Part shown: one piece after another, positions 15,052-63,465 of the stretch
Numbering within the stretch: the stretch's first letter is position 1
Layout: every line of letters starts with the position of its first letter
Assembly: GCA_963575745.1 (NCBI GenBank)
Contig: CAUYUJ010015265.1
Location: 42,501-106,500, forward strand
Direction: 5' to 3'
DNA length: 64,000 nucleotides
DNA from: Prorocentrum cordatum
Taxonomy: Eukaryota; Sar; Dinophyceae; Prorocentrales; Prorocentraceae
The notes under the pieces: model-generated
Seen by the model: only the letters and a program-made list of their open reading frames with translations
Databases searched by the model: none
Told to the model about the DNA's origin: nothing
Position numbers and translations under genes: made by a program

Positions 15052-18000
15052 GTGCGTCGGGCAGGTGCAGAGAACGGCCATGACATAATTAATTCACTAC
15101 GTCGTTTAGATGTGGGACTCGCGGGGTTGTGCGAGTGTCAGTTCCTTTCAGTTCGTGATCTCAGCATGCGAGGTTACACAATTTTTCGGAGTACTTGTCG
15201 GAAGGCTGCGGTGATTATGTCTAAGTCTTGGAGAGACTCGCTCAGAGCCACATATCGTGGCAAAGGTTTTGTCATTTGTAGTTATTCTAGTGTTACGGTT
15301 ATTGTTGCATATATGCCACATGAGAGTATCAATGCCCTTACGGAAGAACAGTATGAGCATGATGTGTATGAGCAGATATTGTTTGATATATCCCAAGTGC
15401 TTCGCACACATAGGTCTAAGTTCCCGAAGCAGCCGCAGGACCTGGTCTTCTTGACAGATGCTAACGTCGAACTCGAGCCAGATTCGGAGGTCAACGGCTT
15501 TAGAGTTACTGGATCAGGGCTTCTGGAGGCGTCTGGGATTGCTGGGGAGTCTACGGAGATTGATACTGGGATGGAGGAGGGAGCGGATGACGGCAACCCG
15601 TATATGACTCAAACAAAACGTGGTGCACGCAAAGCCAGACCTCATAGGCTTGTCTCGGGCTTCGAAATTCGACGGGCGTCTAGGTTGCAATCGATGAGGA
15701 GGGCCCTACTGGACTTCTGCGGGCTCTGGGGCATCAGGATGGAGAACACATTCGGGCAGAGGAGGGTTACTTTCAAATCAGGTACGGGGGTGGAGAAGGT
15801 GCTCGACTATGTTGGTGTCAGCCGTCGTTTACACAGGCAGGAGCTCACCGTTGGCTGGATGCTGCCTTCGGAAGTCGGCCACGCCTGGACGGAGCACCCT
15901 TGCAGCAGATACGAGCGTGCGCTGTCTGACCACGCCTGCATAGTTGTTCGCTTGTCTTGTGCACCGTCTGCGAAGAGACGGACCCAGCCTGCTCGAAAAT
16001 TCATCCACTTGCAACCGGTGTCACAGCTGGAGTTTGCGAAGAACATGGACGATCGGGGCAGTCGTTACCGTGCTCTGTGCCAGGAAAATGCTGACCCAGA
16101 GGATCGACAGGAGATGTTGGATACGCTGGGACCTGACCTCATAAAGGCCGCCGAGGAGACCCCCCAGAAAGATATCAATCCCAGGAATAATGTGCCAAAG
16201 AAATCCGAGATCCACTGGGCCGCCCAGGCAAGTAAACGTGAAGCTCTTCGTCGGGGGGATAGAGAGGAGGCTAAACGGTGCTCAAAGATTGTGAGGAGAG
16301 AAAGAAGGAGGCTAGAGGCAAGAGTACAGAGGTGGAGGACGGAAATGAACACGAGGAGGAGGAGGAGGGCCAAGACGGAGACGTTGATCCTTGCCAACGG
16401 GATGGAGTCTCAGAACCGCGAGGAGTGGGGGGACGAGATATTGGGGCACATGAAGTCTAAGGTGGAGGACCCCGAGGCCAGAGAGGTGACCCTGCGTGAG
16501 CTTCAGTCGCTGCGTGGTCTATGTTCGGGAAGCGGATCCTCAGAGGTGTTCTCGATGTCGCTCCTGCTGCGGGCGAGGGCGAAGCTGTCCACGGGAAAGG
16601 CCCCAGGTCCCGACAACGTGACTGTCACGATGTTGAAACAGCTCTCGTGGGCATCTGTGCGACGTGTACTGGTGAGCTTCCAAGGTGTGTATTCCAGAAG
16701 GTTATGTTGTCCCGACAGTTGGCGTCAACTAGCTGCCACACTCATGCCAAAAGAAATGGACATACAACATCTGACAGATACACGTATGCTATGTCTACAG
16801 TCGTGTCTTATGAAATGGTACATGACATGTATTGTGATGTTGATTGAGAAGAGGATTGAGGAGCACCGACACTATGTATGCCTGTACGGATTCAGATCGG
16901 GACGCAAAACATCGGAAATCACCAGCGTTGCCAAGAGGCTCAGCCAGCACTCCGCTGTCTGGGGCAAAGGAGACAGTTTGTGGCTTGCCAATCTTGATAT
17001 CTTACAAGCTTTCGATAATGTTACTCCGTGCCTCGCCATGCGCTGTCTTCGTGCTCTTGACATACCTGCTGATCTCATTGTGGCGTTGATTGAACCCATG
17101 ATGGATAATCAGTGCGTGGCCAGCTTCGAGGGCATCGAGGCATCGTCAGCGGTCTATTGGGACAAATCTATTCGAACGGGAGGAGTAGAGGGACCTATGA
17201 TTTTTCTGGCAGTTTCTATTGTACTCTGGAGAGATGTTATCGACAGATGGAGGCAAGAAACGCAGTACGGCATCAAATTGGAAAATGATGAGCGCATGTT
17301 CAATGGTGAGCGTATGACCCACAGTTTCTGGGCAGATAATCTTTTGTTGTATGCGAAGACCCGCACTGACCTTGAGTTGATGGTGCGTGACATGAGTATC
17401 CCCCTGATGAATGCAGGAATGACCTGGAAGCCGAAATCTTTGATGTATATTTACTTTGGTGCGCCGCCTGGCATCCCGCCGTCCCCTGAGCAGGATATCC
17501 GTGTGCTGGTGCCGTCTAGTGACGCCGCTCTTGGGACCCGAGAAGTGGTCCTACCGCGTGTTCAAGCGTTTGAGATCCTGGGAGCCACTCTGGAGGAGAC
17601 CTGGAAGGACCACTCGGACTCAGAGGCCATGCTCCAGAAAGCCCAGAGGATGTTCTTTGGGGAAATCGCGTATTACCGCTGTTCTGGGATTGACTTGGCT
17701 GAAAGATTTACTCGCTATCAAGCTAAAGTGATTGCTGCATTATTATTCAACTGTGAGGGCAGAACGCCCGACTATTCTACCATTGCTGCTGTTCACTATT
17801 TTGAAGGCAGATGTCTAGCTATAATGTCAGGTATACGCAAGCGGAGAACTGAAGGCTGGTCTGAGTTTCAACGTAGGCGATACAAAGCGGGACGACAGAG
17901 TTTTGCTGGACTTGGATTCCGAAGTGCGGTGCAGATATGGATATTTCGTTGTTGGGATTGGGCTAAGGATGTCTCAGTTGCTGCAAGTATTCGTATGAGG

Positions 18001-19194
18001 AGATACACAACACACACTGAGGAGGAGGAGGGAGAGACGGTACCAAATCGGCGTCAGAGGAAAACTCGGGCGATGGCGGCGGCGGCGACTTCTCAAACAT
18101 ATCATGTATCTCAGATATCCCAGATGTCGAGTGGCTGTCGCCGGCGTACACCAGATGATCAGCCTGCCATACCTGAGGAGTCGGACATGTCACGTGAATG
18201 GATGATATCTAGGCTGGCCATGTTACATGGAAGGGGGAAGTGGACGGAACATCGTGACACATGTATTCTAGCAATGCCTGTAAAAGATAGGAAGCAGCTG
18301 ACACGCATGAACATAGGCGGCCGCCCCCGTGGACATACTGCGTGGGACTGGTGCTTGTGCGATCTCTTTGGTTGTGAGTGGTACCTCTCATTCGACAGTT
18401 CCGCTGGGTCCCGTGAGAAATACTGCAAGCATTTGCTGACTGTGATTGGTATGCAACACTTGTTCGACTTGTTTGTTCTACCCAGGCCGCCTGGTGTGAG
18501 ACATGTGAAGGCAGAGGAGGAGGAGGAGAGTGAGATGAATGAGAGGATGAGCAAACGTATTGCCGCAAATTTTGAGAATGAAACGGAGTGGAGGTGTGAG
18601 AATATTGAGCGTCTTGGGATGGAGATCTTGGGAGATAGTAAGACTGTTGTAAACTGGATGTGTGGTGAGTGGCAGATTCGCAACAAGCAGTATGTACGAC
18701 TGGTGGGAACACTACAAAATACGGTATCGATGCTGTCTGGATGGGGACTGACCTCACCTGCATCGGGACAGAATCTGTATAAGCATTTCTTTCGTGAGGG
18801 TAATGAGCGTGCGGATAAATTGTCGTGGGAGGCCAGAGGTGGCCAAACTATTACTCGCTGGTTTGCATATGATAAGTTCCTCAGTACTCGTAAGACTGCT
18901 CTCCGTGGTGCATTCGATGGGGGTGTCAGTAATGAAGGATGTGGAGGTGGGTGGTGGCTTCAGATTGGCGTTGTAGGTAGGGGTTCCAGCGTGCAGGTTG
19001 ATTTTCCCATCTCCTCCTCCTCCTCCTCCTCTTCCTCCTGCACCAGCTCGCACAGCTTCCATTGGCACGATGTGGCCGAGGAGGCGATGAGCTTGCCTCC
19101 TGGTAGCACGGTAACCTGCTGTGAACTAGCTGCCTGCGCTGCCCTGACGAGAGCTGCTGCTAAGGTGGCGTGCGCTCTGCTACGACCTACCTAA
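15052..19194 (+). CDS. LINE1 ORF2: endonuclease / reverse transcriptase / permuted RNase H
   Basis: The polyprotein has about 1,380 residues counted from a GTG at 15052. The frame opens directly after the TAG at 15019-15021 and no ATG precedes the endonuclease start (ASWNVRR), so the true start is unclear. The endonuclease has catalytic Glu at about 28 (GLCECQ), TDAN, LDYVGV and SDH (292-294). RT motifs are GKAPGPDNV, SWRQL, YGFRSGR, motif A LDILQAFD (Asp649), RTGGVEGPM, and motif C FWADN (760-763), where Asn replaces the usual second Asp. The C-terminal RNase H shows GDS (Asp1195), NERAD (Asp1255), FDGG (Asp1289) and CELAA (Glu1358), that is, canonical motifs in the order 3-4-1-2. A TCC microsatellite encodes a serine run near 19010-19040. 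Confidence 0.85.
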   Translation: MRRAGAENGHDIINSLRRLDVGLAGLCECQFLSVRDLSMRGYTIFRSTCRKAAVIMSKSWRDSLRATYRGKGFVICSYSSVTVIVAYMPHESINALTEEQYEHDVYEQILFDISQVLRTHRSKFPKQPQDLVFLTDANVELEPDSEVNGFRVTGSGLLEASGIAGESTEIDTGMEEGADDGNPYMTQTKRGARKARPHRLVSGFEIRRASRLQSMRRALLDFCGLWGIRMENTFGQRRVTFKSGTGVEKVLDYVGVSRRLHRQELTVGWMLPSEVGHAWTEHPCSRYERALSDHACIVVRLSCAPSAKRRTQPARKFIHLQPVSQLEFAKNMDDRGSRYRALCQENADPEDRQEMLDTLGPDLIKAAEETPQKDINPRNNVPKKSEIHWAAQASKREALRRGDREEAKRCSKIVRRERRRLEARVQRWRTEMNTRRRRRAKTETLILANGMESQNREEWGDEILGHMKSKVEDPEAREVTLRELQSLRGLCSGSGSSEVFSMSLLLRARAKLSTGKAPGPDNVTVTMLKQLSWASVRRVLVSFQGVYSRRLCCPDSWRQLAATLMPKEMDIQHLTDTRMLCLQSCLMKWYMTCIVMLIEKRIEEHRHYVCLYGFRSGRKTSEITSVAKRLSQHSAVWGKGDSLWLANLDILQAFDNVTPCLAMRCLRALDIPADLIVALIEPMMDNQCVASFEGIEASSAVYWDKSIRTGGVEGPMIFLAVSIVLWRDVIDRWRQETQYGIKLENDERMFNGERMTHSFWADNLLLYAKTRTDLELMVRDMSIPLMNAGMTWKPKSLMYIYFGAPPGIPPSPEQDIRVLVPSSDAALGTREVVLPRVQAFEILGATLEETWKDHSDSEAMLQKAQRMFFGEIAYYRCSGIDLAERFTRYQAKVIAALLFNCEGRTPDYSTIAAVHYFEGRCLAIMSGIRKRRTEGWSEFQRRRYKAGRQSFAGLGFRSAVQIWIFRCWDWAKDVSVAASIRMRRYTTHTEEEEGETVPNRRQRKTRAMAAAATSQTYHVSQISQMSSGCRRRTPDDQPAIPEESDMSREWMISRLAMLHGRGKWTEHRDTCILAMPVKDRKQLTRMNIGGRPRGHTAWDWCLCDLFGCEWYLSFDSSAGSREKYCKHLLTVIGMQHLFDLFVLPRPPGVRHVKAEEEEESEMNERMSKRIAANFENETEWRCENIERLGMEILGDSKTVVNWMCGEWQIRNKQYVRLVGTLQNTVSMLSGWGLTSPASGQNLYKHFFREGNERADKLSWEARGGQTITRWFAYDKFLSTRKTALRGAFDGGVSNEGCGGGWWLQIGVVGRGSSVQVDFPISSSSSSSSSCTSSHSFHWHDVAEEAMSLPPGSTVTCCELAACAALTRAAAKVACALLRPT

Positions 19195-19280: not shown

Positions 19281-20641
19281 CGGTTTACCGCCGGCGCCCA
19301 GTTTCACAACTTTTGGTCGGTTGAAAATTTTGTTCTCGAAATTTGAACATTCGTTAGAGCTCTAGTATTTTTTCCCGTGATATTCGATCTTATTCCCGCT
19401 CGCCATCTTGATCTCAGCTCGATCGGGTATCTTTTACTGCCAAAAAGCACACTGGCGGGATCGGCCGTTTCGAGTCATCTTGATACGCGTTGTCGGTATT
19501 TTGTACTTAACTCGAGCTGTAGGACAGGTACAGAGCTGATAAGCACAGCTATCGCACTCAGAATCATCAGGCGCTTTCGCCTGTTGAATCCATAGGTCTG
19601 AACTCGGTCTGCTAGCCGAGCTAGGTCCGCAAACCTATTCGTATTATTCGAGTCAACTTGATACACGTTGTCGGTATTCTCTACTTAACTCGAGCTGTAG
19701 GGCAGCTACAGTGCTGGTGAGCACGCCTGTCGCACACAGAATCATCAGGCGCGTTCGTCTGTTGAATCGATAGGTCTGAACTCGGTCTGCTAGCCGAGCT
19801 AGGTCCGCAAACCTATTCGTATTATTCGTGTGAACTTGATACGCGTTGTCGGGATTTTCTACGAACCTCGAACTGTAGGGCAGCTACAATGCTGGTAAGC
19901 ACACCTATCGCACTCAGAATAATCAGGCGCGTTTGCCTGTTGAATCAATAGGTCTGAACTCGGTCTGCTAGACGAGCTAGGTCCGCAAACCTTCGTATTA
20001 TTCGAGTCAACTTGATACGCGTGATGGGTATGTTGTACTTAATTCAGCTACAGCTGGTAAGCACACCTATCGCACTCAGAATCATCAGGCGCGTTCGCCT
20101 CTTGACTCCAGAGGTCTGAACTCGGTCTGCTAGCCGAGCTAGGTCCGCAAACCTATTCGTATATTCAATTCATCTTGACAAACGCTCTCGGTTTTCTGTA
20201 CTTAACTCGAGCTGGGCAAGGGCTACAGTGCTGCGGGTCCTAGAAATCGATTAGCACACATCAGGCGCGTTCGTTGGTCGATTCGAGAGCTCAGAACTTG
20301 GTCTGCTGCTCGAAACAGGTCTGCGAAACTATTATATTATTCGAGTCATCCTGAGAGATGCTGTCGGTTTTCTGCACTTAACTCGGGCTGTAGGGGGGCT
20401 GCAGGGCTGGCAATCACATGAGTCGATTCGCAGACATCAGACGCGTCCGCCTGTCGCATTGAGAGATCTGAACTCGGTCTGATCAGACGCGTCCGCTTGT
20501 CGCATTCAGAGGTCAAAACATATTCACTATGAGTCAGAATGTTGGTAGGTGCTCTTGGTTTTCTCAACTTAAGTCGAGCTTGGAAGCTCTACGAGTTCCC
20601 CGGCGGTAACCAAGGTTGACGGTTTACCGCAGGCGCCCAGT

Positions 20642-21235: not shown

Positions 21236-23329
21236 ATGGAGGGGCAGGAGAAGAGAAAAGCGGGAGAGAGAGAGGAAGAGAGCACGGGCAGGGGGGCGGG
21301 CGAGAAGACGGCGGCGGCGACGACGACGACGACGAACCGCCCGCGCCGCCGGCTCGCCAGCCCTGCGCCCCGCCCCGCGCGGCCGCCCCCGGGACCCCCG
21401 CGCGCGCGCGCGGGGGCGGGGGCGCGCCGGGCGGGCGGGCGCGGGCGCTTGGGCGGCCGCGGCGCGCAGACACACGCGCGCCACACACACGCACAGACAC
21501 ACACACACACACACGCGCACGCACGCGCACACACCGGATTGGACGGTCGCCCCCAAGGCGGCCGTCCTTTCCCCCCGGGGACGGCGGTCCTTCCCAATCC
21601 CATGGGAGACCGTCGTCCTCAGCCCTGCCATCCCCTTGGCAGGGTGGCGCTAGGCGCAGGCTCTAGGAGCGCACTTCCCTCCCCGACGGCTGGGTTTTCC
21701 CCCAGCCGGCCCGGGGGTGTGACAGGGAATGAGGTAGTACTTGGTGAACTGCCGGTGAGACTGGGTATCCCCCAGTCTCATTTCAGCCTGGGCGCTAAGC
21801 GCAATTCGAGCCTCCGGGCAGGTAATGTGGGTTTGGGGTTGGGGGCGGCGGGGCCGGGGCCGGGGCCGGGGACCCAGGGGTCGGGCCCGGGGGGCCAGGG
21901 GCCGGGGCCAGGGGCAGGGGCGGGGCCCAGGACGCAGGGGGGTGCGCGCTGGAAGGGGGAAACGCTCGCGAATTTTTCGCGGGCGTTTTCCTGTCCAGCG
22001 CGTGATTCCGAGGGCGGCGTTGATTTCTTTGGAAATCCACGCTGGGAGGGGGAAACGCTCGCGATTTTTTCGCGGGCGTTTTCTTGCCCGGCGCGCGGTT
22101 TTCCGAGTGGCACGGAGGTTTCTGGAAACGGGCGCTCGGATGGGGAAACGCTCGTGAAATTTTCGCGGGCATTTTCCCGTCGGGCGCCCGTTTCCCGGAT
22201 TGGCGCGCCTTTTTCTGGAAAACCGGGTTGTGAGGGGGAAACTGACGCGGATTTTCCGTGCGGGTTTCCCGCTCCGGCGTTTTTATTGGACGATTCGGCC
22301 GACGGCGGTGGCGGCGGCGGCACCATCGGGCCCGGAGGCGTCAAAAATCGTCCCCGGGGCGTCAAAAATCGTTCCGCAGGCGTGCGAAAACGGCCCGCGG
22401 ACGACGGCGAGGAGGGAGAGGAGGAGGACGACGTGGAGAAAATGGGCGACAGAGGCGTCCAAAACGCCTCCCCGGAGGCGTGCAAATGGTTCCGCGGAGG
22501 CGTCGAAAACCGGTTGGGGGGAGATGATTTCTACGAGCGTGTTCTCGCCGGGGAAATTTCCGCGTTCGCTGCTAGCGACGACGAAGGCGACGACGACGTC
22601 TGCCGCTTCCCTGTCCGGGTTTCCGCTATAGCCATGGCTTTGGCCGAGATGGAGGAGGAGGAGGAGGAGGAGGAGGAGGAGGAGGAGAAGGAGGAGGAGG
22701 AGGAGGAGGAGGAGGAGGACGAGGGGGAGGGGGAGGGGGAGGGAGAGGAGGAGGAGGACGAGGAGGAGGAGGAGAAGAAGGCGGAGGAGGAGGAGGAGGA
22801 GGAGGAGGAGGAGGAGAGGGAGGAGGAGGAGGAGGAGGACGAGGGCGCCGACGACGACGACGACGACGACAACGACGGCGACGACCGGGACCGGGACCGG
22901 GACCGGGACCGGGACCGGGACCGGGACCGGGACGCGGTCGGAGACGGGACCTCGGCGGGGAGCGGTCCCGGTTCTCGGAGGCGGTGCGCGGAGCTCCCGG
23001 CGCCGGCCCGGGAGTCGCGCGCATGGGATGACCGGGTGGAGGAGTGTTTGCACGCAGAGCGCGACGTGATCCACGAGGAGGTCGTCGATGATTCCGCGTT
23101 GGAGGCGGCGGAGCGCGAGCAGAAATCGCTCTGGAAAGCGTGCCGCGCGTCGTGCCGGCGGGTTCGGTGTGCGCGGCGGGAGGCGGAGTGGGCGCGGCGG
23201 ACGGAGGCGGCGGCCGAGCGGTGCTGTGGAGGGCTACAGTGTTGCGGGTCACAGGAATCGATTCGCACACATCAGGCGCGTCCGTCGGTCGATCCCAGAG
23301 CTCGGAACTCGGTCTGCTGCTCGAACTAG
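21236..23329 (+). CDS. Uncharacterised low-complexity open frame, possibly not a gene
   Basis: It is an open frame of 697 codons. In order it encodes a basic start, Ala/Pro/Gly-rich stretches, Gly-Pro repeats, four 31-residue repeats with core GETLxxFSRAFS (about residues 240-365), several GVKNR-like short repeats, a Glu/Asp-rich run of about 90 residues, an Arg-Asp dipeptide run and a more ordinary helical segment (ARESRAWDDRVEECLHAE). The last 35 or so codons lie in family A repeat DNA, so the annotated end is accidental. Such bias can keep a frame open by chance, and the opposite strand is also open in places. The 93-bp period (divisible by 3) is the best argument for coding. No known domain is recognised. 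Confidence 0.3.
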   Translation: MEGQEKRKAGEREEESTGRGAGEKTAAATTTTTNRPRRRLASPAPRPARPPPGPPRARAGAGARRAGGRGRLGGRGAQTHARHTHAQTHTHTHAHARAHTGLDGRPQGGRPFPPGTAVLPNPMGDRRPQPCHPLGRVALGAGSRSALPSPTAGFSPSRPGGVTGNEVVLGELPVRLGIPQSHFSLGAKRNSSLRAGNVGLGLGAAGPGPGPGTQGSGPGGQGPGPGAGAGPRTQGGARWKGETLANFSRAFSCPARDSEGGVDFFGNPRWEGETLAIFSRAFSCPARGFPSGTEVSGNGRSDGETLVKFSRAFSRRAPVSRIGAPFSGKPGCEGETDADFPCGFPAPAFLLDDSADGGGGGGTIGPGGVKNRPRGVKNRSAGVRKRPADDGEEGEEEDDVEKMGDRGVQNASPEACKWFRGGVENRLGGDDFYERVLAGEISAFAASDDEGDDDVCRFPVRVSAIAMALAEMEEEEEEEEEEEEKEEEEEEEEEDEGEGEGEGEEEEDEEEEEKKAEEEEEEEEEEEREEEEEEDEGADDDDDDDNDGDDRDRDRDRDRDRDRDRDAVGDGTSAGSGPGSRRRCAELPAPARESRAWDDRVEECLHAERDVIHEEVVDDSALEAAEREQKSLWKACRASCRRVRCARREAEWARRTEAAAERCCGGLQCCGSQESIRTHQARPSVDPRARNSVCCSN
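21470..21534. repeat. CA/CG dinucleotide-rich microsatellite
   Basis: Alternating purine-pyrimidine sequence (ACACAC interspersed with GCGCAC) lies in the GC-rich block. This type of sequence can adopt Z-DNA; no function is evident. Confidence 0.8.
21623..21780. repeat. Cluster of three strong hairpins
   Basis: Perfect stems are CCCTGCCA/TGGCAGGG (21623-21630 with 21637-21644), CGGCTGGG/CCCAGCCG (21687-21694 with 21701-21708) and TGAGACTGGG/CCCAGTCTCA (21756-21765 with 21771-21780), with loops of 5 or 6 bases. The last two share a CTGGG/CCCAG core. Their arms differ from the array hairpin, so they are not copies of it. Confidence 0.8.
21950..22320 (+). repeat. Four tandem 93-bp repeats, each with an internal palindrome
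   Basis: The core GGGGAAACGCTCG (or a close variant) recurs at about 21958, 22051, 22144 and 22237, exactly 93 bp apart. Units 1-3 contain an imperfect inverted repeat (GGAAACGCTCGCGA with TCGCGGGCGTTTTCC). The unit equals 31 codons in the + frame. The fourth unit is more diverged. Confidence 0.8.
22650..22935 (+). repeat. GAG/GAC and GGGACC microsatellites
   Basis: (GAG)n with interruptions runs to about 22840, GAC repeats follow to about 22880, then CCGGGA hexanucleotide repeats to about 22930. In the + frame these give poly-Glu, poly-Asp and Arg-Asp runs. Confidence 0.9.
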
Positions 23330-41189: not shown

Positions 41190-43624
41190 TCCCGTTCTGT
41201 GTGGTGATCCTGGTCGAACAATTTGTGTCTCGGGCTGGCCTCATGGGACCCCTGGGCATCTACGGCTTCCAGGAGGGACGTAGGACGGTGGAAATTGTGG
41301 GGGCCCTCAAGGCTCTGGCTCAACATGGGGACATCTGGGGAAAGGATCAGACGGTCCATATATTGTTAACGCCGATATCAGACAAGCGTTCGACCATTGC
41401 AGCCTTCAAAATGCCAAGCGAGCTATGTGCCATGCCAATATTCCTGCCTATCTCCAGTATGCTTTGCTTTCACCGCTGGTTTGCACTACGGGGTCGTTAG
41501 TTGTCGAGGGTATGGCCATTCACGACATCAACTGGGACGTCTGTATACGGACGGGCGGCCCTGGGGGGCCTCTTCTCTTTAACCTTATCATATGTGCCAT
41601 GTGGGGACCTATATTTCGGGATTGGGACAGTAGAGGAGTGGGGTATGTGCTGGAGGGCGTCTGTGGTGAGTATGAGCGACGGACAATCGTGAACCACTTT
41701 GTGTGGGCGGACAACTGCTACCTTGTCTCTGCCTCCTCAATTGTGTTGGCTCAGATGATGCCCGATCTAACACTACCACTACATGACTGGGGGATGAGAT
41801 GGAAGGAGAGCAGCCTGTTGTACATGACATGTGGGGAAAATGCGAGAGTGGACGGTGACGGACATATACTTGCCAGCGAGGATTTGTGTATACCTGCGTG
41901 CTCGAGATATCAGGACTTTAGACTTCGACGTGTGTGCAGAATGAAAGTATTGGGTCATGAGATTTTCTCCACCTACCTAGTGCCCGCTCATCCTGATGTG
42001 GAATATCGCATCAAGGAGGCTCGTGCTTGTTTCATTGGACAGTCGGATTTCTTTCGTAACAGAGCGGTAGCTGTTCGTGATAAGTTTTGTCGTTATCAAG
42101 ACAAGGTGCAGAGTATGGCGTTGTATTGTCTAGAGACATGTACTGCTGATACTTCCTCGCTACACATGCTCAATGCCTTCGAGGGATGGTGTTTGTGCCG
42201 TATGTTTCGACGGCCGAGGAGGGAGGAGGAGACTATGGCGGACTGGGACCGACGACGGTACCACGAGGCCAGAGAGCAATTTCGATCTTATGGATTTGCG
42301 AGTTTGGTGCAGCGATTTCTCCGTATGGTGTGGAACTCCGCTAAGGATGCTGCAGATTTCATTTCTATATTGTGTACTGCTTCTCATGAGGAAATATCTT
42401 CGACGCAACGTACGTGGAGAGATCACCACATGACTACGGTTGCATACGGCCCACTGTGGGACAGGCTCAGGACGGATGCGTCTGAGTGCCTGCGGGGTAT
42501 GTTTCACTTCCAGGAGGCTTCGCAGCTAAAAAGGAGACATGTTAGCTCAGGTCGAGCTATTGGCCAGAGATGCTGGCTATTTTCTTTCTGCGAATTCTAC
42601 GGACTCAAATGGTGGGAGTCCTTTGTGCCGACAGATGCTGCGTATGTTCAGTTCTGCGAACACATGTGTACACGGACGATGCTGAGTTATTTTCAGAAAA
42701 GGAAAGGGTACGGTACAACAGGTGGGGCCCTGCAGGAGGTACATATTATCACACAAAACGACCTACACACCTATGGGGCCCAAGAGGGCACTGCGGCTTT
42801 CAACGACAAGCTGGCCAAACGTATTGCGTTACAACATATGAAGGAGGTTGAGTACGACCTCGACTCATTTGGGATCCCTGTGTACATTTCTGGGGACAGT
42901 CTTCTGGTGGTGTCTTGGCTGCAGGGTGTCTGGAGGGTGCTTAATCGTACTTATCAGGATAGGATCAACAGAATGATAAACCAACTTGACAACATGTGTC
43001 AGAGGTTTGGAATTAGGCCTGCCTGTCATGGGAGGGACATTGTCGACCACACATATAGGGAATGGAACACGCGTGCAGATGTACTCACTCATGCGGCCCG
43101 TGTCGGGCCATCAGTGATTCGAGATAGGATAGGGCTTTACGCCCCTCAGTTACAACAGGTGTTTCGCGTTTGTGCCATCAGAGCTGGATTCGATGGTGGT
43201 GTCTCTTGCGACGGCGTGGGGGTCGGGTGCTGGATAGATGTTGGACGGGTTTCGAGGCTCTCAAGGCAGCCACTCAGCCATGAGATTATTTGGACGGAGG
43301 TGTATAGTGCGGCACTCTCGAATGATCCAACTTCAACAGTGACTGATGCCGAGATCTCGGCCGTTGAGCATACGATGATAATCTTGCCGCGGGTTGTAAA
43401 AGCGTATTTCGGACAGGATATGATGTGATTTTGATTGTGCTCACTCACGCCATGCCTTTGTTTGTCGTGTGTGTGTGCTTGACCTCTCATCCTCCTAATA
43501 AGAGTTGGCTTTCGCCTCTGATCGTTTGGATCGGTGAGGCTTCCGCCTACTCCCGATGCGCCCGCTCCTTGCTTCCGACCAGGCTGGAAAGCCTGCACAG
43601 TCGACCGCAAAGTCCGCAAAAACT
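41190..43624 (+). mobile_element. 5'-truncated LINE (LINE2), about 2.4 kb
   Basis: It begins within the reverse transcriptase region and ends with the tail GACCGCAAAGTCCGCAAAAAC, close to that of LINE1. The 3' junction is at AGGTTGACGG of a B-type hairpin. The 5' junction lies 8-10 bases further left (CCCGGC), so a few target bases were lost rather than duplicated. 5' truncation is usual for LINE insertion by target-primed reverse transcription. Confidence 0.85.
41201..43428 (+). pseudogene. LINE2 RT / permuted RNase H, frameshifted and truncated
   Basis: The first part (41201 to about 41363) reads IYGFQEGRRTVEI in one frame. Motif A (NADIRQAFDHC) then follows in the frame that continues as a 667-codon open reading frame from 41425 to 43428, so there is a one-base slip near 41,360. 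The later part has RTGGPGGPLLFNL and motif C VWADN (93-97), again Asn for the second Asp. The C-terminal RNase H is in permuted order: GDS (Asp491), NTRAD (Asp552), FDGG (Asp590), DAEIS (Glu643). It is only distantly similar to LINE1, so the shared order is not recent copying. Confidence 0.8.
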
Positions 43625-48858: not shown

Positions 48859-50103
48859 GTGCCCTCTGGAGAGGGAGCTGCCCACGCTCTCAGAGGCGAG
48901 CCACTTGCCGTCTCAAAGGGGAGGAGGGCCTTTCGAGACTCCCGACGTGCGCTTATGATGTGCAATGTTGGCTGGGTCACGGCTCGCGACACAATAACAG
49001 AGGTTCTACGACAACACGGCAACAGGGCCTTATCTAGTTCGGGCAAGCGGCTTCGTGGAGGCCCTGTGTCTGTGGGCGGTCGGTCTTGGCAGTTCCCCTA
49101 CATTCAGTTCTTTGGGGAAAAGTGGTGGGAGTCTGTACGGGGCGATTGGGTTCAGTTCTTGGAGGTATGGAAGCAACTCCTTACACAATACAACAAAACT
49201 AAGGTCTATGATTACTTTGTGGTGTCTTGGAAGGGTTCTCCTAATGGACCTCGAGGCCCCCCTGAGGCTCGAGAGAAGGCCGATACTGAGGCGGTCGACA
49301 TCGCGACCAACCCTCTGCACCCCAAGTACGACCCCAAAGAGTCCGCCAAGCTTGCAATACGTTATGCTATGATCCAGGAACGTGCGACTGTGTGGGATAT
49401 ATCCTCAGAGGGTTTTGCTGCTGAGTTCAAGGGTGACTCATTACTTATCTGCTCCTGGCTACAGGGGAAATGGAGATGTGAGAATCGTGGCTACTGCAAG
49501 AGGACAGCTGCCATGATTGATTGTACCTTTGAGCTCGCTGCGTGTTTCAATCTGAGGCCTGCTGCCTTGGGACGTGAGATATGGAGACATGAATTCAGGG
49601 AGGACAATACACGAGCGGATGAATTGACGCATGAGGCCAGATGTGGCCGCACATTCTACAGAACTCATTGTTATCTATATCCATTCGAAACTTATCTCTT
49701 ACCGTTCGCTATCAGGGGAGGCTTTGATGGCGGGGTTGACCAGCAAGGATCAGGATGTGGTTTCTGGCTTCAGATCGGCTTAATCAATACTCAGTGCAAT
49801 CCCAGTGAGATAGGCATCGCTTCCGCGAGAACCGTGGGCCCCTTCCCTGCTGGGCATGAGTTTGCTGTTTCTAGTGCCGTGCCCCTCGTTTGGAGGGATG
49901 TGGCCGAGGCCGCGTGGCTCCTTGAAGGAGCTACAGTCACAGAATGTGAACTGTCGGCAGCCGAAGCGCTGCTCAGCGCTGCCCGTGTGCTTCTGCGGGA
50001 CCGGTCCTCGCCCAGCTGCACTCAGCTGGGAACGCGAGTCCAAACAAACAAACAAACCTGGTTCGGAGGGAGTTCGGCAGGATGTCAAAACAGTGGACAC
50101 TAA
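48859..50103 (+). CDS. LINE3 partial ORF2: connector and permuted RNase H
   Basis: The frame of about 414 codons is open to 50103, but its true start is lost through 5' truncation. The connector segment FGEKWWESV matches LINE2 FYGLKWWESF. The RNase H motifs are GDS (Asp193), NTRAD (Asp254), FDGG (Asp290) and ECELS (Glu364), in the same 3-4-1-2 order as LINE1 and LINE2. The frame is intact over the whole domain, consistent with recent insertion. No RT catalytic box is present, so this copy cannot be autonomous. Confidence 0.8.
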   Translation: MPSGEGAAHALRGEPLAVSKGRRAFRDSRRALMMCNVGWVTARDTITEVLRQHGNRALSSSGKRLRGGPVSVGGRSWQFPYIQFFGEKWWESVRGDWVQFLEVWKQLLTQYNKTKVYDYFVVSWKGSPNGPRGPPEAREKADTEAVDIATNPLHPKYDPKESAKLAIRYAMIQERATVWDISSEGFAAEFKGDSLLICSWLQGKWRCENRGYCKRTAAMIDCTFELAACFNLRPAALGREIWRHEFREDNTRADELTHEARCGRTFYRTHCYLYPFETYLLPFAIRGGFDGGVDQQGSGCGFWLQIGLINTQCNPSEIGIASARTVGPFPAGHEFAVSSAVPLVWRDVAEAAWLLEGATVTECELSAAEALLSAARVLLRDRSSPSCTQLGTRVQTNKQTWFGGSSAGCQNSGH

Positions 50104-51812: not shown

Positions 51813-54085
51813 CCGTAGCCATTTTGGCTCAAGGCTCAAGCCGCATCGCGCGGACAGGAGATTTTGCCCCGCCAGATTTCGCTTCCCTCGTACATATCTG
51901 TGTACCCAACGGGTGATCTGCCGGCGTTGGATTGATTTCTCTGTCTGATCAGTTGTTCTTGCGTGCCCCTTCCTTGTGCGGCATCATGACAGCGCAATTT
52001 TGTTCGATTAGTTCTGTTTCGACCAGTTGGAAAAGAAAAACGAGGAGAATCAAACTGGCGATTTGTAGACAAGCTGTATTTGATGTTATGCAGTTTAATG
52101 CTCGTGATCCATATTTTGTGGCTGATCCGAATACCTTCCCCGCGTTTGGCTGGTTTGATAACCTCGATGATTGTGCGCGAAACCCATGCCCGTTTCAGGG
52201 GAACTCGGAGGAGCAGGTCAATATATTGTTGAGTTCCTTATCGGTGCCAGAGCCGAAGACCAGTGAGAAAGACAAGAAATCGGACTTGCATCTGATTGGT
52301 GAAGTTGCTTATGTTGATTCGCATGACCTTTGGTCGCCGGCTGGGTCTGATTATTCGCAGAGACAGGAGAAGGAGGTTTCGTCACATCATGATGTTCCCG
52401 ATTCAAATGTTCCCGCTGTTGACCCAGGTGTTCTAAAAGAGGAGTTGCATGATGAGGAGTTGCAGGATGCGGGGTTGCAGAATGCGGAGTTGCTGAATGA
52501 GCAGTTGCATTATTCTCATCATACATATTATATGGCTTCACGCTCTGAAGTGTGCCACACTTCAGCTTCTGACGCAGACCCGGCTCGCCGTGGAAAGGAT
52601 TGGCAGGGGGATCTTAAGGATTTCAAGGACGAGGAGGAGGAGAATGTTCATGTTGAATATGTGGAGAGTTCTACGACAGTTGCTGCTGAAGAAGCGTCGC
52701 TTGCTTCTCAATCAAATGATGCTGTACTGCACGCATTTCCTTTGGATTATTCTTTGCACTCAGCTCCTTTGGATTATTTTCTGCACTCAGTTCCTGTGGA
52801 TTATTCTCGAGTGCAAAGGGAAGGTGGAGGCCCCGAGGCGCTGCCGTTGGCATCCTCGAAAACCCACGGAGAGTGCGAAGTTGACCAGCGTAAAGATAAC
52901 TGTGCCTCTTCTTCCCGGCTCTGTTCAGATGAGTTGCAGAGTAATCGATCTAAGTGTCAGGCTGCCAGGGACTGGGCCCGTGCCAATGACGATGCAGTTG
53001 CTCTTTGGCGGGAATTCGAACGGCTCCCGAAAGATGAGTTTCGGATCGAGGCGCTCAGGGCATACAAACTTCGAATGGGAATTGAGAGTCCCGAGGAGGC
53101 GCCGACTCCTGAGGAGGATGCTGGCCGTGGGAAAGGCCAGAGGCACCGCAGAAACAGGAGGCGGGCAAGGGCGAAGGCTCAGGCAGTTCTAATTGGCTCT
53201 TCTATGCCAAAGTCGGCCCATCAATCTACTTGCGATCCTCCCCAACCTCCGTCCTCTTTTCACGATTCAGTTTCTTCCGCTCTACCCGCCCCAATTGTGC
53301 CCTTGTTGCCCGAAGGCGACAAGGAGACGGAGGTGGATGAGTTGCATAACTATCAATCAGAGTGCGATGAGGACGCTGATTCGGATGCAGCCTCCCACGC
53401 ATGGGATAGAATGGCCACCCAGCGAGTGAGGGCAAATTTTTACTTGAAGCAGGCTGCTCTGCAACGTTTCTGTGAGGCTTTGCGCCGTGATGGGGAGGAG
53501 GACGCGGACATCCAGAGAACCTGTGGGCTGTGTCGGTTGGACAAGATGAGGATGCACCGTATTGCAGGGTGGTGCTTCGGACATTGGCGGTGCTTGACAT
53601 TCTACTCAAGTGTTGCTCAACGGTTGATGGAACAACGCTTGCAGAGCCACATTAGGAACCTCTGTGTAACCTTTTGGCCTTAACTGTGGCCTTAACTGGC
53701 GCCTGGCGCTGGATATACAACGTAAACATGAACTAGTCGGCCTCCACGGTTTCTTCGTTGGAGGGCGGTCTGTGGAAGTATATGCTGCTGATCGGCTGTT
53801 GCTTTGACCAATGCAGTAAAACGGCATTGTATGGCCGTGGAACACGTTTTGGGTAGCGTTTCAACCAGCTCTTACACCATTCTCTAACCTGTTCCAACGC
53901 CTTTGCATTCTCACATGTTGTGCTGCATCCTTTTCCTTGTTCCTGCATCCTATTCCGATGCCTATGCCTCAGTGGCTCGGCAGTGTGATGATAAGAGGTG
54001 CCTTCTCTAGCTACCCTGTGCTCCGTTTGGGAGTCTTAGGGCTCAGCTGTCACAGCTGTCCGCGCCCTGACTCAAACTCAAAAAC
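51813..54085 (+). mobile_element. Retroposon with a 583-codon open frame and array-hairpin target
   Basis: The unit is about 2.27 kb, running from CCGTAGCCATTTTGG to the tail GACTCAAACTCAAAAA. It encodes one long protein without endonuclease or RT motifs. It is followed by CCTGGTTGACGG, the same hairpin loop position used by the LINEs. A truncated second copy is at 45,084-47,006. It is probably mobilised in trans by a LINE of the kind seen here; this is inferred from the shared junction and tail style. Confidence 0.7.
51986..53683 (+). CDS. Uncharacterised protein of the retroposon
   Basis: The first ATG is at 51986 (GIMTAQF); the frame is open from 51932. No family is recognised. Visible features are short internal repeats (ELHDEELQDAGLQNAELLNE and three copies of an LHSxPLDYS-like unit), an acidic DEEEEN patch, a basic stretch (GQRHRRNRRRARAKA) that could bind nucleic acid or act as a nuclear signal, and a conserved C-terminal third with YQSECDEDADSD, a CGLC pair and RIAGWCFGHWRCL. 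The C-terminal third is preserved in the truncated copy. It could be an ORF1-like RNA-binding protein or a captured host transcript. Function unknown. Confidence 0.6.
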   Translation: MTAQFCSISSVSTSWKRKTRRIKLAICRQAVFDVMQFNARDPYFVADPNTFPAFGWFDNLDDCARNPCPFQGNSEEQVNILLSSLSVPEPKTSEKDKKSDLHLIGEVAYVDSHDLWSPAGSDYSQRQEKEVSSHHDVPDSNVPAVDPGVLKEELHDEELQDAGLQNAELLNEQLHYSHHTYYMASRSEVCHTSASDADPARRGKDWQGDLKDFKDEEEENVHVEYVESSTTVAAEEASLASQSNDAVLHAFPLDYSLHSAPLDYFLHSVPVDYSRVQREGGGPEALPLASSKTHGECEVDQRKDNCASSSRLCSDELQSNRSKCQAARDWARANDDAVALWREFERLPKDEFRIEALRAYKLRMGIESPEEAPTPEEDAGRGKGQRHRRNRRRARAKAQAVLIGSSMPKSAHQSTCDPPQPPSSFHDSVSSALPAPIVPLLPEGDKETEVDELHNYQSECDEDADSDAASHAWDRMATQRVRANFYLKQAALQRFCEALRRDGEEDADIQRTCGLCRLDKMRMHRIAGWCFGHWRCLTFYSSVAQRLMEQRLQSHIRNLCVTFWP

Positions 54086-56916: not shown

Positions 56917-57602
56917 CTAACGGGCGACGATTGCGCGCAAATTCCACCCCGGATGTCGCCGCAGATCCCACGGCTGTGACTGCGGCTTCCTGCCGCCGAC
57001 AATCTTCAACAGAGAACTTCCCTCGAAGGCGTGCACTCTGTGAATCGACTCCTTATCCCCCGTACAACTTTCAGCATTATAGAGGAGAGTGGCTTGTATC
57101 ACACTGCAGAAACGCTTGAAACGCTTGATCAGGGGAACGCTGTGCTCTCTAAAATACCTTCATACCTGAGTTGACCATGAAAGGCCTTTCTCGCCGCCGG
57201 CAATCGGTTCTCAACATCTGTATGTCGGTTCGAATGGCACTCGACAGAAACCGAACTACCCATAACAGTCAACCCATATTGACTTTCCTGAAAGGTACAT
57301 CGTCTCCATCAAGTCGTAAATACAGCAGGGGATGCAGCGCCGAAGCCGATCACCTCGAGAGATTCCTTCTTCCAACTGAAACCCCATGCTTGAAAGCGTT
57401 GAGTCAAGCCTACGATTTGCCTCTGGAGCAGATCTGGGTCCGAGCCGAGAATATCAACGTTGTCAGCATAGATCATGTGATTTATCAGTGGCTGTTTTGT
57501 CGTGCGGTTTGGGTCGTCCGCGCCGGAGCGTGAGCGCGCGATGCGCGCGCGTGGTTCGGGTTGAAATATGATGCGAAGATCCTGCCGCAGCTGCTTTTGC
57601 AA
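56917..57602 (-). pseudogene. Minus-strand LINE reverse transcriptase relic
   Basis: Reading leftward, motif C appears as MIYADNVDIL (YADN codons at 57460-57471), followed by AWGFSWKKESLEV. After a break, the thumb/connector signature appears as QATLLYNAESCTGDKESIHR and HAFEGSSLLKIVGG (57,102 to 56,990). These segments lie in different frames with stops between, so the copy is dead. As in the + strand LINEs, Asn stands where the second Asp of the catalytic box is usual. Sequence to the right (57,600-58,490) may be its upstream part, but I cannot assign motifs there. Confidence 0.55.
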
Positions 57603-58549: not shown

Positions 58550-59322
58550 AGCGCATTAGGTAGCTGTCCAAATCACCGTCGTTGCCTCTGGTCGGGCTGG
58601 CGCCTCGGGATCACATTGTGCGCGCGCCGTAACCATGACATGGGTGCGAGACACTTGAGAGAGGCAGGAGGTGGGATGGGGGATGGAAGAAGGAGGCAGA
58701 CTAGGACGGGCGGGAAAGGACGAGAGCAAACCCATATTTTATCAGCGATGCTGCAATCCACTTCCGCCCCAAGTCCCCTATGCCGTATCCCCTATCCCCA
58801 AGTCGCCTGAACCTCCTGACTGCCAAACCAGCACCCTCTGTGTTTGCCCCAGGCGGGCTCCTCGTTCTGATGAGGAGCTCCCTTGCGTCCTCCTATCAAG
58901 CAGTAAGGCATGCGACTAGGTGTCATCATATAGCTCAAAGCGGCGTCCAGCCAAATTCCCCATATGCTGAAGGACTGCCCCTCCTCTTGCGTGGGGGCGA
59001 GAGTTCTTTTTTGATTTCCCCCCTCCCTTCTATGCTTCATTTTGTCGCAGTTCCCAACAACATCACAAACGGTGGAGAAGTCTCAGGCACAACGTCCGGC
59101 CCGCGCCATTTTCACGCATGGGGGTTCGGCAGGGGGGGTGATGCGGAAGGCAATGGGGTGGGTGCGGAGGAAGAGGCATGGGCGGGGGAGGGGTGGCGAA
59201 GGGGGGGGGGAGGAGGAGGAGGGGGGCGAGCTCTGGAGGGGCTGTGGCCTAGATGCTCCGTCAGGCCCCGCGTGCAGGGGCCTGGGGGTCTCGGCGCGGC
59301 CAGCGCCGCCTCCAGGTCAAGC

Positions 59323-59950
59323 ATGCCCCGCTGGCTCCAGGAGGAGGCCGATGGCGACATCCTCTTCATCCAGGAGACGGGGGTCGCGCCAGGCGCCAGG
59401 GTGGGGGTCGAGCAGGCCTGCCGTCGCGGGGGCTGGTGGGCTCCTTTCACGGAAGCCAGGCGCACAGAGCGCGGAGGGTTGTCCTGTGGCGTGGGCGTCG
59501 CCTGCCGCGAGCATCTGGGCATCGGCTGGCCGCTTGCTGGCCCGCCGCTGCCAGCTGACCACATGGTAGCCCTCTGGATCAGCGCTGTGGTGCCAGGCGG
59601 CTTCCTCGCGGTCTCGCTCTACCTTGTGTCGGGCAGGAGGCTGGGCCCTGGGGTCAAGGTGCTACTGGCGCAGCTTGGCAAGTACCTCGAGGCGGTGCGG
59701 GTCCCGTATTGTCGGTGGCGACTGGAACTGCGCGTCGCAAGAGTTGGAGGCGTGGGGCTGGCCAGAACGCGTCTCGGGCTTCGTGTCCAGCTCGGGCGCG
59801 TCTACCTGCAGAGTGGGAGGCGGCGCGGAGATGGACTTCTTCGTGGCGGCAGGCGGCCTTGGAGCTTCGGTTCGGGGGGTTGAGCGCTTGGACAGCCTCC
59901 CGAACCCGCGCTACTCCGTGAGACCGCAGCTGGATGGTGCCAGGGTGCAG
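59323..59950 (+). pseudogene. Endonuclease (EEP family) domain of the GC-rich LINE, frameshifted
   Basis: The first frame gives MPRWLQEEADGDILFIQETG, with the catalytic Glu motif, then GGLSCGVGVACREHLG. After a slip at about 59,700 a second frame gives IVGGDWNCAS, the DxN metal-site motif, and DFFVAAGG. The order and spacing fit an apurinic-type endonuclease as in LINEs. The slip and later stops show it is not functional as read. Confidence 0.6.
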
Positions 59951-61770: not shown

Positions 61771-63465
61771 ATGTCGAGCAGATGCTGCCTGAGGGTGTGC
61801 TGGAGTAGGCGCCGCGGCCACCAGCGCCGCGGGACATCCTGGGCGCCGCGCGGTCCTTCAAGAAGAGCGCTGCGGTGGGGGATCGACAGCCACAGGCCGC
61901 CCGACTTAAGCTGGCTCTCCGATGACAGCATCCTGGCGCCGTGCCTGCATCTCGTCGAGGCGGGTGCCCGGTTCGCCGCGCAGATCGCGGAGGTTTTTAT
62001 TTTTCTGGCCAAGCCTGGCGGTGGCTGGAGACCGATCGGGTTCATCGCGTCGCTGGTCAGGCTGCTGGGCAAGGTGCGACGCCAGGAGGCGAAGCGTTGG
62101 GGGAAGGCGACGGACTGGGGCTACTTCTTTGGCGGTACGGGGAAGTCCTGCGGGGATGCGGTGTGGCTCCAGAGCTTCGATGCGGACCGGTCCAAGGCCC
62201 TGGGGTTGGTCTCCATCTCTGGGTTGCTCGACCTCAGCAATGCGTGCGAGAGGGTCGCGCACCGCCAGATGGTTCGCGCGGCAAGCAGGGAGGGCCTCCC
62301 GCTGAGGAGGATCACGATCCTGCTCCAGCTCTACGGGGGCAAGCGGAGGCTGTGCTTGGACCGCTGGAAGACGGAGGCGTTCCAGGTAGCCCTACAACGT
62401 TTGGCAGGGTGCTCCTTCGCGACCACGCTCCTGCGGGTCGTCCTCATCCAGGTGCTCGGCGCGATGCTGAAGGCCTGGCAGTCGGTGAAGGCCTACGCGG
62501 TGGTGGGCGACATCGCACTGGCGGTCCACGCTAAGAGGGCGCAGGCTGAACACATATTGGTCGGGGCCACGCACGTGCGGTGCCAGAGCCTGGGGGGCAT
62601 CGGCTTCAAGATCTCGGCGACCGAGGTCCAGATCCTCAGCTCTGATTGGGAGGTTGCTTGTCGCGTGGAGGACGGGCTCAAGCGCTGGCAGTTGAGGCGC
62701 GTGAGGGCCGCGAAGAACATGGGTGTGGACTTCGTGATGTCCAAGGGGGCGTCTTGGCGGGTGCTGCGCCAGAGGGTCAACCGTCTCAGGCGGCGAGCAG
62801 GACGCTACATGGCCTTGCGAAAGGCAGGGGCCAAGAGGCTCTCCCAGGTGTCCAGGACGGGCGGTCAGGCCTCGATTTGGCACGGCGCCAGGTTCAGTGG
62901 GGTACCTCCGCGGGCGCTGCAGCGTGCTCGCTCGGTGAACTGGAAGGCCCTGACGGGCGATATAGGCAGCATGTCTCGGACGGTGCTGTTCGCGCTGCAG
63001 GAAGGCCGAGCCTGGAAGCATGACCCCGCGTACGCCGCGCAAGAGCTTCCCTTCGGAGCGCGGGCGAAGGCCGCCTTCCTGGGGCACAGGCCCGCGGCGG
63101 CTTTCAAGAAGGTGCTGGAGGTGAAGCCCGACAGCTGTGGCGACGTCGCGGGTCCAGCGGGGGCAGTCTGCCTCTCGCTGGAGCGCCGTGGCCGGGCTTT
63201 GGGGGGGCGAGCGGGGCCGCGTCATGGACCCGCAGTTCCTCGGCCCGCACGTGACTGCCAGCTTGGTGGAGGCTGGGGTCTACCGCTACCTGGTGAGGCA
63301 GGTGGCAACGCACGAGGGTTTCGAGCAGCTGGAAGGGAGGGCGCCCGACCAGGAGCCTCTCCGTGCCGCGCTGGCGGGGCTTCGCCGCGGCGGCAAGCAG
63401 TTGGAGGCAGAGCTGCTGGAGGCCCACGTCGCAGGGGGGCTCGTAACGCAGAGCGACCTCGATGA
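61771..63465 (+). pseudogene. Reverse transcriptase-like region of the GC-rich LINE
   Basis: It has KPGGGWRPIGFIASL, motif A LLDLSNACERV (Asp codon 62230-62232), a motif B-like GCSFATTLL, and a motif C-like VVGDIAL (Asp codon 62509-62511) in which Ile replaces the second Asp. Helix-rich connector sequence follows. Near a G7 run (about 63,198) the plausible reading moves to another frame ending at 63469. Residues expected for catalysis are partly changed, consistent with decay, although a substituted motif C also occurs in the unrelated LINEs of this window. Confidence 0.55.

Follow-up and report, generated by a model that had tools for sequence, protein, structure and literature searches.

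A probable circularly permuted, archaeal-type RNase H domain at the C-terminus of dinoflagellate LINE proteins

Introduction

Do the long interspersed nuclear element (LINE) proteins encoded at this locus end in an RNase H domain whose two halves have exchanged places? The locus is a window of 64,000 nucleotides from the dinoflagellate Prorocentrum cordatum (assembly GCA_963575745.1, contig CAUYUJ010015265.1, positions 42,501 to 106,500 of the forward strand), and all coordinates below are counted from its first letter. Three LINE copies on its plus strand, named LINE1, LINE2 and LINE3, concern us here. An earlier note had read the four catalytic acids of RNase H in their second open reading frame (ORF2) in a rotated order. 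From sequence and predicted structure we consider it probable that the last ~190 residues of these ORF2 proteins constitute one circularly permuted archaeal-type RNase H domain (D-E-D-R-D). This reading is based on the order of the residues and the fact that seven diverged sequences (in the case of the Glu, six) conserve them, together with the homology of the first segment, a longer and better profile match once the halves are swapped, and the order of the predicted secondary structure elements.

Results

Order and conservation of the catalytic residues

LINE1 ORF2 (15052–19194) encodes 1380 residues comprising a reverse transcriptase (RT) followed by the putative permuted RNase H. It was located from the ORF list and from the Pfam RVT_1 profile, which matched residues 569–794 (16756–17433) with 45.6 bits (cut-off 29.6) and an E-value of 9e-12. 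The ORFs of LINE2 (41425–43428; a fragment with part of the RT and the candidate domain) and LINE3 (48859–50103; a fragment with the candidate domain) align with it. In all three, the motifs follow one another as GDS, RExNxRAD, FDGG and T(V)TxxE(L/I), which in terms of the canonical catalytic residues is the order 3-4-1-2. The linear arrangement β1-β2-β3-αA-β4-α-β5-α, with acids 1-2-3-4, was therefore not what we found, either in sequence or in predicted secondary structure.

In LINE1 the N-terminal half of the domain (18589–18852; GDS ... RExNERAD) would supply β4, the helices, β5 and αE, with Asp1195 (codon 18634–18636) as the third canonical catalytic residue at the end of β4 and Asp1255 (18814–18816) as the fourth in αE. 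The C-terminal half (18889–19176; FDGG ... TVTCCEL) would supply β1, β2, β3 and αA, with Asp1289 (18916–18918) as the first catalytic residue in β1 and Glu1358 (19123–19125) as the second, at position five of the final helix. The corresponding residues are Asp491 and Asp552 (N-terminal half, 42850–43116), Asp590 and Glu643 (C-terminal half, 43165–43404; TVTDAEI) in LINE2, and Asp193 and Asp254 (49390–49656), Asp290 and Glu364 (49699–50001; TVTECEL) in LINE3. All twelve acids stand where the earlier note had placed them, those of LINE1 within 18628–19190. It had also described the shared order as surviving low overall similarity, and indeed, over the C-terminal regions, identity to LINE1 is 28% for LINE2 and 32% for LINE3 while the four acids are invariant.

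A search with LINE3 of ~5.8 billion proteins, in which the 7992 candidates sharing most words were scored, returned four metagenome relatives (P0004–P0007) that are 43–54% identical to LINE3 and carry no precomputed Pfam domain. These keep the same order as far as they reach, with the three Asp of GDS, RAD and DGG present in all four and the Glu in all three that extend to it; P0006 ends before the Glu and was excluded from alignments A4 and A5. Three further, partial relatives came from an alignment-based search that scored 7991 candidates. Alignments A3 and A6 include P0008 (a 97%-identical piece) and the partial P0009 and P0010, none of which was counted as independent full support. The recurrence of the order in three diverged copies and four metagenome proteins, as far as they reach, upholds the proposal that it is an old trait rather than an assembly artefact. 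Using the LINE1 C-terminal region as the query gave no homologues at E ≤ 0.001 among 2256 candidates, and no relatives were found in viral contigs with P0003 or A7, or in GTDB genome contigs with A7. One relative, P0009, which is 83% identical, carries the label of the green alga Pyramimonas in EukProt; this label may reflect contamination or, indistinguishably, transfer between algae or a wider spread.

The Asp, Glu, Asp, Asp and Arg/His columns are all five invariant in the six complete sequences, and the invariant Arg of RE is as found in archaeal-like RNase H (D-E-D-R-D). Considering columns of A3 (10 rows) with at least six letters, those that are acidic in every lettered row are, in LINE3 model numbering, the Glu of RE (position 104; 8 rows), the Asp of RAD (110; 9 rows, the doubtful P0010 among them), the Asp of DGG (146; 9 rows), a D/E position in strand β3 (203; 8 rows) and the Glu of the last helix (220; 8 rows). 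At the GDS Asp (position 49), D is present in eight of the nine lettered rows; P0010, the exception, has Ala and is a short piece that does not look homologous over its first residues. From this conservation, RNase H activity is likely.

Profile matches of the two halves

When the A3 profile was searched against the PDB, six matches were obtained to E 10, and the best five were RNases HI aligned over GDS...RAD, namely LC11-RNase H1 (3u3g, E 0.021; 4h8k, 0.12), the Halobacterium salinarum enzyme (4e19, 0.093) and that of Sulfolobus tokodaii (3aly, 0.62; 2ehg, 0.67). P0001 alone gave no RNase H match in the PDB. The hhalign template combined 17 canonical RNase H sequences, of which 15 came from phage and plasmid records and two were entered by hand. 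Since the N-terminal half scored 67.2 against this template and 300 column shuffles peaked at 22.2, its match is not due to chance. With Foldseek, the sixth-ranked hit of the LINE1 model was S. tokodaii RNase HI (3aly), with an E-value of 0.11, a probability of 0.99 and 26% identity over 73 columns at a root mean square deviation of 2.1. Judged by its sequence, the GDS–RAD half is clearly the second half (β4–αE) of an archaeal-type RNase H.

Swapping the two halves into canonical order, which had been suggested as a check, improved the matches. In the PDB profile search the score of 3u3g rose from 20.8 to 25.7 bits and its E-value fell from 0.002 to 7.6e-5, the match now beginning at helix A. 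With hhalign the score rose from 68.1 to 74.5 and the template span lengthened from 69–134 to 43–134; without the swap, the alignment with canonical RNase H goes no further than β4, and after swapping the Glu of T.T..E (CEL) sits on the catalytic Glu of TNNvAEY. With the alignment rotated by five columns at a time (39 rotations), hhalign gave 73–75 for columns 80 to 175, where the C-terminal helix lies mostly or wholly ahead of β4 and the N-terminal half is nearly whole, and 42–70 for the rest. When the columns of the C-terminal half were shuffled before joining, the real value was matched in 3 of 300 trials (maximum 79.2), and 41 of the 300 shuffled alignments also reached upstream of template position 60. 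Removal of the β2–β3 insert raised the joined score to 79.4, with one of 300 shuffles as high (maximum 83.4). Where alternative alignments were allowed, the full alignment matched canonical 68–134 first (67.2) and then, weakly, canonical 43–63 (16.2) at the C-terminus, and therefore in inverted order.

Predicted structures

AlphaFold2 models of LINE1 and LINE3 reached predicted template modelling (pTM) scores of 0.74 and 0.71, respectively, and both predict the same permuted order of elements, as the earlier note would have it. In both models D49 comes straight after β4; αE contains D109 (LINE1) or D110 (LINE3), β1 contains D143 or D146, and the last helix has E212 or E220 as its fifth residue. 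The models thus contain the elements expected of an RNase H, a fold with sheet order 3-2-1-4-5. In structure searches with the models, no RNase H aligned over the full length of the domain. In LINE1, β2 and β3 are separated by a low-confidence Ser-rich insert (18985–19050) encoded by a TCC codon repeat, with a predicted local distance difference test (pLDDT) score below 50 at model residues 166–187.

The region upstream of GDS

A canonical DGS-type strand just upstream of GDS in all copies would have argued for an ordinary linear domain, and none was found. The dipeptide DG is absent from the preceding 394 residues in LINE1 and 191 residues in LINE3; LINE2 has VDGDG at residues 142–146, ~346 residues upstream of GDS. 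The region before GDS (LINE3 residues 30–186, 7-row alignment) scored 11.6 against canonical RNase H, where 100 shuffles averaged 10.6 with a maximum of 17.7. With a score at shuffle level and DG lacking consistent presence, a canonical first half upstream of GDS was rejected.

A helix of low to moderate confidence is predicted upstream of β4 (LINE1 model 7–31, ~18508–18582; LINE3 model 15–29, ~49333–49377), roughly where helix A would canonically stand. The hhalign match (slice 140–269) does not reach into it. As a speculation, it could represent what remains of helix A of a lost first copy of the domain.

Discussion

A model for the permuted domain

We propose that the chain begins at canonical β4 (GDS), continues through the helices, β5 (RE) and αE (NxRAD), then crosses to the next Asp 34–38 residues on, where it would form β1 (FDGG), β2, β3 and αA (T.T..E), so that no structured element follows helix A in the protein. 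The four acids may thereby come together in a single two-metal site within one chain. Removal of the template RNA from the hybrid has been proposed as the role of RNase H in other LINEs. In these proteins too, the domain may hydrolyse the template RNA in the RNA:DNA hybrid after target-primed reverse transcription and so enable second-strand synthesis. The permutation could have originated by tandem duplication of the domain, followed by loss of β1–αA from the first copy and of β4–αE from the second, and this would predate the split of the LINE1–3 and metagenome-relative lineages. The best reading is that the permutation is old and has been maintained. We also think it reasonably likely that a whole dinoflagellate (perhaps other algal) LINE lineage possesses an active RNase H which underwent permutation once, long ago, has been maintained by selection and is invisible to domain annotation.

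Alternative explanations

Several results weigh against a permuted domain, and they concern mainly the C-terminal half, which is supported much more weakly than the N-terminal half. On its own, the C-terminal half scored 15.3 with hhalign, which is at about the 95th percentile of 300 shuffles, and 19.5 once the β2–β3 insert was removed, with 2 of 300 shuffles as high. The swapped HMMER alignment places the CEL Glu three residues before the catalytic Glu, and β1–β2 with the DGG Asp were left unaligned by hhalign in both native and swapped order. The Pfam RVT_3 cut-off of 21.6 was never reached, the best scores being those of LINE1 (14.6 bits native, 16.0 swapped), followed by P0005 (13.3, 15.3), P0007 (13.3, 15.0) and LINE2 (11.9, 12.0); LINE3 and P0004 gave no RVT_3 match in either order, and two of the 10 A3 members matched at E ≤ 1 (best 0.055). 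The pLDDT around β5 is moderate in both models. The spacing of the acids, which had been described as canonical inside each half, proved so for the third and fourth (60–61 residues, against 49–70 in the 17 canonical domains). Between the first Asp and the Glu it holds for LINE2 alone (53), the distances of 69 in LINE1 and 74 in LINE3 exceeding the canonical 38–57 because of the low-confidence insert between β2 and β3. The assignment of the canonical first half (β1–αA) thus relies less on profile statistics than on its motif, its conservation and the predicted structure. These observations, in particular the modest scores of the C-terminal half, the register of its Glu and its being missed by Pfam, are what would be expected if a true though incomplete second half of RNase H (β4–αE) had been joined to an unrelated C-terminal βββα domain. 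In that case the C-terminal Asp and Glu would only resemble RNase H motifs, and the enzyme would be dead or the module hybrid-binding. Given the invariance of the acids and the gain in match on swapping, we regard such a dual origin as unlikely.

A permuted domain could also be completed in trans, the C-terminal half of one ORF2 pairing with the N-terminal half of another in a domain-swapped dimer. Integration of LINEs may involve dimers of their proteins, and the linker and termini would permit such pairing. Against this, the single-chain models reach the pTM scores given above with most elements of both halves at block-mean pLDDT 71–96, and the distance from the RAD Asp to the DGG Asp is nearly constant (34 residues in LINE1, 38 in LINE2 and 36 in LINE3), which is consistent with a link inside one fold. 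We therefore hold complementation in trans to be very improbable. Since LINE2 and LINE3 are fragments and the window is repeat-rich, the order might be suspected to arise from assembly, recombination or the choice of frame in degenerate copies. LINE1 is open over 1380 codons in a single continuous frame, so the order there is not a frame artefact, and it is common to three diverged copies and to four proteins of other data sets, as far as they reach; an artefact is effectively refuted, and we give it a negligible probability.

Comparison with known systems

In common with the archaeal-type RNases HI identified above and Pfam RVT_3, the permuted candidate has GDS-x-L-V ... G-x-W/Y ... RExNxxAD with Arg in place of His, a second-half identity of 19–26% in structure searches and, when swapped, a helix A with T...E. 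It differs in that the canonical domains have D-E-D-D (16 of 17, L008 being without the last Asp), whereas here D-R-D precedes D-E, and in the longer β2–β3 insert of LINE1 and LINE3. The accessible part of PMC4640811 gives D-E-D-H/R-D as the conserved residue set, Arg being present where the domain is archaeal-like, in plant L1 and Utopia. The present domain shares with that of two groups of non-LTR (long terminal repeat) elements, plant L1 and oomycete Utopia, an archaeal-like character, Arg for His and a place within a LINE protein. In oomycete Utopia the RNase H lies upstream of the RT, whereas here it is C-terminal and permuted, and that part of the paper makes no mention of permutation in either group (PMC4640811). 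For another compared system with RT and RNase H in the same element, an alignment legend gives the conserved residues as D-E-D-H/R-D, and the accessible portion of the text does not mention a permuted domain. The CinA C-terminal, TolB N-terminal, Ham1 and PqiC domains (SCOP c.51-like) were also among the systems compared.

The nearest published case, as far as the available section of the CIRPIN preprint goes, comes from AFDB clusters, in which two RNase H-like domains are reported to be related by circular permutation (PMC12667903), and because of this pair the RNase H-like fold appears to tolerate permutation in nature. The pair is the result of a large-scale structural screen; its members are not identified in that section of the text, which mentions neither retrotransposons nor a catalytic analysis (PMC12667903). 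In the portions available, Majorek et al. 2014 does not contain the string "permut" (PMC3985635), "circularly permuted" in PMC5408684 describes a scaffold and not a domain, and a paper on Symbiodinium LINEs does not mention such a domain (PMC5890265). The earlier note knew of no natural LINE RNase H permuted like this, and our full-text literature search, mostly without subscription journals, likewise found none in mobile elements or retroelements. A permuted RNase H thus seems new for this kind of element.

The rotated order would hide the domain from standard annotation. Because no scanned copy reached the Pfam cut-off, surveys of LINE RNase H gain and loss that use linear profiles would be expected to undercount it, and LINEs scored as lacking RNase H may carry rotated copies. 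If our reading is true, these proteins would also provide a natural test case of a two-metal nuclease that tolerates a chain cut between αA and β4, and would indicate that duplication and loss can remodel the domains of LINE ORF2.

Other features of the window

The RT of LINE1 had a weak match in the PDB (8c8j, E 0.065). The N-terminal part of LINE1 ORF2 is similar to an apurinic/apyrimidinic (AP)-type endonuclease at the motif level alone, through an SDH at 292–294 that we take to be the motif of such enzymes; the endonuclease region gave no profile matches and no PDB relatives. A fourth LINE RT fragment, frame-broken and LINE2-related, lies on the minus strand at 56953–57497. The usual catalytic box of RT is YxDD, and its second Asp is replaced by Asn in all three RT copies, the box being WADN in LINE1 (17326–17340) and LINE2 (41704–41715) and YADN in the fourth copy (minus strand, near 57497–56953). 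Two ORFs at 58780–59883 and 61771–63465 appear by eye to be endonuclease-like and RT-like and to belong to another LINE type.

Many satellite-like arrays of ~178 bp (TTCGAGTCATCTTGA...) are spread across 1–48440, one of which begins at 19469, right after LINE1, and a GGA triplet repeat (22651–22844) lies within an acidic ORF (21236–23329). An exact 21-mer of the dinoflagellate spliced leader on the plus strand at 51813–51833, from which the host is most likely a dinoflagellate, stands ~100 bases 5' of a 583-codon ORF (51932–53683), and its position there may mark a retrogene.
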